A stretch of DNA of 34,723 bases, taken from the IMG/VR virus record IMGVR_UViG_3300033571_007994, positions 1 through 34,723 of that record. The stretch is one strand, 5' to 3'. Both the position numbers and the translations under genes were made by a program. Of this stretch, positions 34,076-34,723 are shown piece by piece; the first letter of the stretch is position 1, and each line of letters starts with the position of its first letter. The DNA comes from a virus. A model generated the notes under the pieces. The model was not told the origin of the DNA, did no database searches, and saw nothing but the letters and a program-made list of their open reading frames with translations.

Positions 34076-34372
34076 ATGAAGGTAAAATTAGCAGAGGCGT
34101 TGCTCCGCCGTAAGGAGCTACAAGGGAAAGTCGATATGCTTAGGCACATACAGGATAAGAACCTGTTTGAGGTAAAAGCACAGAGACGACAAGTGACTGA
34201 GAGCCTGGACGATATTATCGCTCAGGTTCCTAAGCTAACAGCTTCGCAAGTTACTTCTGAGTACGACTGGCACTCTCGCCAACTTCGGTTGGTAGATTCT
34301 GCAATCCAGCAAGCAAACTGGACCTGCGAGATCGAAGTCGATCAGACTGTAATGAGCGACTATAAGGCGTAG
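34076..34372 (+). CDS. DIP1984/septicolysin-like helical protein
   Basis: A 98-residue protein with AEALLRRKELQGKVDMLRHI near the N terminus, LFEVKAQRRQVTESLDDIIAQ in the middle and DWHSRQLRLVDSAIQQANW near the end. This resembles the DIP1984 family (helical, function unknown) found in bacteria and phages. GGAGG precedes the ATG. It is the last gene before the tRNA-containing RNA. Confidence 0.65.
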   Translation: MKVKLAEALLRRKELQGKVDMLRHIQDKNLFEVKAQRRQVTESLDDIIAQVPKLTASQVTSEYDWHSRQLRLVDSAIQQANWTCEIEVDQTVMSDYKA

Positions 34373-34379
34373 TAAATAA

Positions 34380-34723
34380 GTTGGTGAGTTAGTGCAAGGA
34401 TGGAGGTGTGCTGAGGAAAGCGTTCTCCTGCGCTTAATCAGGTAGGTGTTGCGCAACATCGTAGACGTTCGCCATTAAGAAATGGCAATACAGCAAAAAT
34501 AGCTCAGCTGGTTAGAGCAAGAGATTGATAATCTTTAGGTCATTGGTTCGAGTCCAATATTTTGCCCCCGTAATGTGGATATGGGAAAACTGAAAGGAAT
34601 CCCGAATATCTGAACAGCGAACTGCGAAGAAGCGTATATCCGAATTGATGAACATGAGAACTGGTACTGAGTTAATTCCGAATAACCAACCTCAGGATTC
34701 CTACCTTGCATTAACTCACCAAC
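34380..34723 (+). ncRNA. candidate 344-nt structured RNA enclosing a tRNA
   Basis: The stretch starts with GTTGGTGAGTTAGTGCAAGG (34380-34399) and ends with its complement, CCTTGCATTAACTCACCAAC (34704-34723), 19 Watson-Crick pairs plus one G-T/A change site. Inside, CTGAGG (34411-34416) pairs with CCTCAG (34690-34695). Local hairpins lie at 34418-34435, 34445-34460 (TGTTGCGCAACA palindrome), 34471-34486 (GCCATT-AAGA-AATGGC) and 34578-34610. A tRNA sits at 34493-34566. No coding frame of note. Large phage RNAs such as GOLLD and ROOL also lie near tRNAs, but this one is shorter and I see no clear match. Confidence 0.6.
34493..34566 (+). tRNA. tRNA-Ile (anticodon GAU)
   Basis: A full cloverleaf. 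The acceptor arms are GCAAAAA and ATTTTGC (six pairs, A7-A66 mismatch). The D arm is GCTC-AGCTGGTTA-GAGC. The anticodon arm is AGAGA-TTGATAA-TCTTT, giving anticodon GAT. The variable loop is AGGTC and the T arm ATTGG-TTCGAGT-CCAAT. The discriminator is C and CCA is not encoded, both unusual for tRNA-Ile, so processing and charging are uncertain. It lies inside the 34380-34723 structure. Confidence 0.82.

Follow-up and report, generated by a model that had tools for sequence, protein, structure and literature searches.

tmRNA joins a tRNA-like part to pseudoknots and is known in permuted forms. RNA-only oligomers are known for few natural RNAs, and their prevalence among large phage RNAs remains open. 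In YrlA, a tRNA-like domain (D, T, and acceptor arms) is enclosed by a stem in which the two RNA ends pair (PMC8394870), and in GOLLD tRNAs sometimes sit in the linker (PMC12286853). The window analysed here, i.e., the whole stretch of 34,723 bases, is an IMG/VR phage contig whose last base is the end of a closing helix, and we consider it probable that the 344 nt at this end represent a new family of noncoding phage RNA, a tRNA-bearing scaffold that dimerises through a hairpin (P5), a reading reached without expression, probing or oligomer data. The first-pass annotation had proposed a new phage RNA class with the tRNA fold as a module, which is supported by the comparison with relatives, as the site takes different tRNAs, permuted folds, or none.

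In the window the RNA region begins right after the stop codon of the DUF6847 (DIP1984-like) gene directly upstream (34076–34372; Pfam PF20935, E = 5.1e-8), and all features given here lie on the plus strand. Folded as RNA, the 344 nt reach −113.4 kcal/mol (z = −5.5), and 0 of 100 shuffles fold as well. The region is closed by a 20-bp outer helix (P1; 34380–34399 with 34704–34723, one G·U pair included) and by the nested helix CTGAGG/CCTCAG (P2; 34411–34416 with 34690–34695), both of which had been described earlier and are confirmed, as are the small hairpins and the intact tRNA cloverleaf of the same feature list. That list overlooked, however, an H-type pseudoknot (34418–34442), a palindromic P5 loop, and a repeat tail. 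The pseudoknot combines hairpin P3 (34418–34435; AAGCG at 34418–34422 with CGCTT at 34431–34435), which is backed by segmentation, a covariance model match, and covariation, with helix P4 (34427–34442; CCTG at 34427–34430 with CAGG at 34439–34442). It is followed by hairpin P5 (34445–34460), the stem of which covaries and the self-complementary loop of which (GCGC, 34451–34454) is the predicted kissing-dimer site. A small hairpin, GCCATTAAGAAATGGC (34471–34486), for which several relatives have hairpins of different sequence, stands immediately 5' of tRNA-Ile(GAT) (34493–34568), and the latter matches the Rfam tRNA model with 61.1 bits over 34493–34566, its cloverleaf and anticodon above the model threshold. 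The 3' tail (34602–34688) carries CCGAnU units as direct repeats at 34602–34616, 34640–34654, and 34678–34688 (CCGAATAACCA); regularly repeated CCGAnU(A/G)ACC units are seen in this tail and in all relatives, and their function is unexplained.

The outer helix had been said to close the region exactly. It does end on the last base, but the record itself stops there, i.e., the helix is flush with the region end because the IMG/VR record ends at 34723. In two relatives (L002 and L003) the helix is followed by a tRNA-Ser and by the sequence that corresponds to window position 1, so that window ends 34723 and 1 are joined by the tRNA-Ser and about 120 bases. Judged from these two relatives, the window record appears to be an excerpt of a genome that is longer or circular. 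A DNA terminal repeat was also considered and ruled out, as the record end is arbitrary and the DNA runs on in relatives.

The same RNA, adjoining a DUF6847 gene, is found at about 70 related loci. The search for homologues started from the DUF6847 protein, which led to 27 viral loci, and an alignment-based DUF6847 search gave 79 viral and 2 cellular loci, Legionella maceachernii among them; most members are metagenomic contigs. With tblastn, DUF6847 was also located in 13 Vibrio phages; the two that were read, both Zobellviridae, are cultured phages and contain the RNA, there without a tRNA. The RNA lies on the DUF6847 strand and adjacent to the gene in nearly all loci, a linkage that is partly by design given that most members were found via the neighbouring gene. 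Pattern searches with the RNA alone recovered contigs also containing DUF6847 where the sequence sufficed; one such match (L041) is a cut fragment, and translation of the DNA 5' of the RNA in another locus (L124) can give ...AIQQANW.... The single RNA pattern tried on cellular genomes gave no matches, only matches of tRNA size came up when the RNA was searched against isolate phages at the DNA level, and 140 Legionella-family genomes searched with DUF6847 included one positive only. The L. maceachernii locus (L123, NZ_FUXJ01000015.1), a culturable source, has DUF6847 and the RNA in a gene block that is prophage-like by eye, from its translations. The covariance model described below, run against the whole Legionella genome, found no match among the 150 of 552 candidates scored, and the RNA is visible in this locus. 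Neither a matching family in Rfam 15 nor a description of this phage RNA in the literature searched (preprints not included) was found.

Comparison of the homologues shows a shared predicted scaffold, in which P1 and P2 provide closure, the P3/P4 pseudoknot and P5 form a 5' core, and the CCGAnU tail makes up the 3' part. Automatic segmentation of 69 sequences (64 distinct; five set by hand, and L098, whose 5' core was missed, excluded) placed hairpin P5 behind an H-type pseudoknot made of P3 and P4 in all 69. Across the 64 distinct members helix P4 is 4–6 bp long, and as many as six pair types occur at individual positions of P4 and of the P5 stem. Such counts come from stems selected for pairing, and a covariance model is the fairer test: a model of the 5' core built from 12 members, with the window left out, recovers the element from the majority of 74 sources, in the window at 34412–34467 (16.4 bits, E 0.014 over 527 kb), and detects a single copy per matching phage record. 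Covariation in P3/P5 amounts to 0.572 vs 0.163 in shuffled alignments, with 95.8% of cells paired, and drops to < 0.09 when the pairing partner is shifted by 1–3 columns; the alignment behind these figures leans towards the covariance model, and the pair counts exclude an early MAFFT alignment of this core in which P3 was off by one column in several rows. The 5' strands of the outer helices immediately precede P3 and their 3' strands follow the terminal CCGAnUnACCA unit, and the outer flanks of 62 members pair at −37.3 kcal/mol on average with their own partners vs −20.4 kcal/mol when swapped between members. The tail itself is conserved in sequence across 67 aligned tails (AACUCCGAnUA...GAAC, CCGAnU..CCGAnU, and UCCGAnUAACCA). 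A second pseudoknot 5' of the tail was rejected as a universal feature, as only 10 of 67 beat all shuffles; it is present in part of the members. Homologues that keep the tRNA without covarying outer helices had been named beforehand as the outcome that would refute a larger RNA. The outcome was the opposite, i.e., the outer helices and the core are retained even in members without a tRNA, and in every homologue the predicted RNA is larger than a lone tRNA.

The site between core and tail holds, as comparison shows for these predicted folds, a tRNA, a permuted fold with a closed acceptor stem, or a small hairpin. Of 71 members, about 27 have a linear tRNA and 17 one that is circularly permuted, 23 lack a tRNA, a T arm plus anticodon arm occurs in 3, and 1 is unclear (classes were assigned by ARAGORN, arm patterns, and hand reading, with 18 labels set by hand). 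The permuted forms have the order T arm, acceptor, D arm, and their acceptor stem is mostly closed by a short loop (GAGA, GAAA, TAAA, TACA, or CAACC). On a poorly resolved protein tree comprising 32 members, the occupancy classes are intermixed, with 10 changes. Of 67 members, 44 have a hairpin with the 7-nt loop NNNNUAA, where 3.0 would be expected (about a third are without it by the test used); it is usually the anticodon arm if a tRNA is present and a free hairpin in many members lacking one, and the anticodon arm of the window (34520–34536, loop TTGATAA) fits it. Since the site holds other tRNAs, permuted folds, or none in relatives, the tRNA fold is, on this comparative evidence, an exchangeable module.

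The embedded tRNA of L087 has the anticodon TTA ("Stop" according to ARAGORN), which might make it an ochre suppressor or merely reflect a drifted anticodon, and L004 (4972–5395) has tRNA-Asn(GTT) twice, inside the RNA and stand-alone just downstream. The inserts of L022, L026, L033, and L074 consist of serial fragments of several tRNAs (two T arms), a pattern that suggests repeated tRNA capture at the site.

In the clade of the window, five tRNAs have one common T arm and the anticodons GAU, GUU, CCU, UCU, and GAU, and those of L005 and L008 have G for U33; given changed anticodons and G33 within one lineage, decoding is hard to reconcile as the only role. Such variation of identity inside one tRNA lineage, together with the roughly 23 of 71 members that keep the scaffold without a tRNA, the permuted forms, which (acceptor mostly loop-closed) give no 3' end unless the loop is cut, and the tRNA-Asn(GTT) present both inside and outside the RNA in L004, makes it unlikely that the locus is a tRNA expression cassette, in which the scaffold would merely frame the tRNA for processing or protection and the mature tRNA, supplied to suit phage codon usage, would be what counts. 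This explanation retains some support, as the tRNA of the window (61.1 bits, normal anticodon loop) may simply be a working tRNA, the embedded tRNAs of other members score 36–70 bits, and tRNAs are common in phages, some members having extra stand-alone ones nearby.

A Watson-Crick palindrome is present in the P5 loop of 55 of the 64 distinct members, where random loops of equal make-up gave a mean of 8.9 and a maximum of 21 in 20,000 trials; loop content had been ignored in the segmentation. Eleven different palindromes were counted (GCGC, GGCC, CCGG, TGCA, TCGA, ACGT, GTAC, GATC, ATAT, CTAG, and AGCT), and the remaining loops are self-complementary via G·U (seven) or read AGC-N-GCT (the last two). 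The P5 loops of L081, L099, and L100 read GCAGC or GCGGC, the strict palindrome being broken by a central mismatch. As the 64 members are related, their palindromes do not count as that many independent events; 11 distinct ones, however, cannot derive from a single sequence by common descent. The kissing loops of OLE and GOLLD swap palindromes, and the same argument was applied there (PMC12286853). As the P5 palindromes swap in the manner of these RNAs, we infer a homodimer contact: two copies are strongly inferred, in the absence of oligomer data, to kiss via P5 as a homodimer or larger assembly. A closed cage would require further contacts, none of which has been identified so far.

A self contact in trans, as these palindromes imply, is not what would be expected if the RNA were a cis-acting element of the operon (an attenuator, an antiterminator, or a translational control) placed between DUF6847 and the following gene, and the tRNA had only been inserted incidentally. 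The position of the RNA is what such an element has on its side, as it is always on the DUF6847 strand, close by, and mostly downstream (upstream in L083 and L122); however, this position relative to DUF6847 does shift and the flanking genes vary among phages, and we regard cis control as improbable. DNA-level inverted repeats, i.e., protein-binding sites or replication or packaging signals that would not act as RNA, can scarcely be upheld: several P5 hairpins are indeed perfect DNA palindromes (L014, L024), but G·U pairs are common in P5 (one also occurs in P1 of the window), pseudoknot pairing and tRNA folds are features of RNA, and strand and order are fixed. A permuted self-splicing intron yielding circular or permuted tRNAs, reminiscent of permuted intron-exon constructs in that the T-half precedes the D-half in permuted members, is extremely improbable and was ruled out for want of an intron core, as no Rfam group I or II intron model matches the window or the relatives tested, the acceptor stems are closed by tight loops, and the same scaffold also holds linear tRNAs or none.

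We favour a dimeric or higher-order noncoding RNA that shows a tRNA-like surface, the function itself being unknown. The RNA is inferred to be transcribed together with the gene block behind DUF6847. Long helices are typical substrates of RNase III, and cutting in P1 by this enzyme might release the RNA, a step that is only weakly inferred. Dimerisation of two copies through their P5 loops would be the strongly inferred step, and the resulting oligomer could, again on weak inference, show tRNA-like or anticodon-arm surfaces to a tRNA binder (the translation apparatus, a tRNA-modifying enzyme, or a host anticodon nuclease). The DUF6847 protein may be a partner of the RNA, a weak inference as well; the nearest solved structure to its low-confidence predicted fold (pLDDT 72) is 3kdq, of unknown function, and the fold match is not significant. 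It is conceivable, as a tentative proposal only, that self-assembly via the palindromic loop into a dimer or closed multimer, coupled with a permutable tRNA block, produces a multivalent tRNA mimic, e.g., a decoy that diverts anticodon nucleases of the host or enzymes binding tRNA. The new RNA is small enough to make and image, with the cultured Vibrio phages and the L. maceachernii block as sources, and natural mutants are in hand, i.e., 11 contact-loop palindromes and linear, permuted, and tRNA-less versions. The family also shows the tRNA fold serving as a plug-in module whatever its strand order, so that a direct test of why large phage RNAs are found close to tRNAs becomes feasible.

Rfam searches for GOLLD, ROOL, tmRNA, and group I introns, suggested by the first-pass annotation, gave no adequate match. 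At threshold the window matches the tRNA model only, and E ≤ 10 adds one sub-threshold antisense match over the tRNA. The GOLLD, ROOL, and OLE models have no matches in the window (E ≤ 10), in 12 relatives (E ≤ 1), or in 8 relatives (E ≤ 5); membership of GOLLD or ROOL is ruled out on these grounds, in line with the earlier view of an RNA like both in concept and identical to neither. For tmRNA there was no match in the window at E ≤ 10 and a single one among the relatives (L018, 18.2 bits vs a cut-off of 47), so that membership was likewise ruled out, and the embedded tRNAs of the new RNA, unlike tmRNA, retain anticodon arms. The likeness to YrlA lies in a tRNA-like domain with a closed acceptor stem and is limited to permuted members, the tRNA of the window being linear. 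The permuted modules of relatives score 29.7–44.3 bits against the YrlA model, the best (model positions 23–89 of 114) staying below the gathering score of 69; most matches span the tRNA-like domain only, whereas pseudoknot, P5, and tail have no YrlA counterpart. A Y RNA particle was rejected despite the similar module, as a Ro60/Rsr (TROVE) gene was found in none of the 17 phage records examined, window included (this concerns phage-encoded genes only, the hosts being mostly unknown).

GOLLD, too, is a noncoding RNA of phages; tRNAs sometimes occur in its variable region, and one of its symmetric kissing loops covaries between palindromes (PMC12286853). The new RNA shares with it a tRNA that is sometimes placed in a variable region of a conserved phage RNA; many GOLLD RNAs, however, exceed 800 nt and have another architecture, whereas the new RNA is much shorter, the window copy measuring 344 nt including its tRNA. 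ROOL shares the occurrence in phages or prophages, often near tRNAs, the variable linker, and intermolecular kissing loops (PMC12286853), but is 659 nt long in the solved example and has no detectable match in sequence or structure. OLE forms a dimer joined partly by a loop with the tetranucleotide swaps GGCC, GAUC, and AGCU, as in P5 (PMC12286853), but has no Rfam relation to the new RNA and no described tRNA module. We file the RNA as a member of neither group, i.e., as a new family that works like GOLLD, ROOL, and OLE and borrows a YrlA-like mimic.
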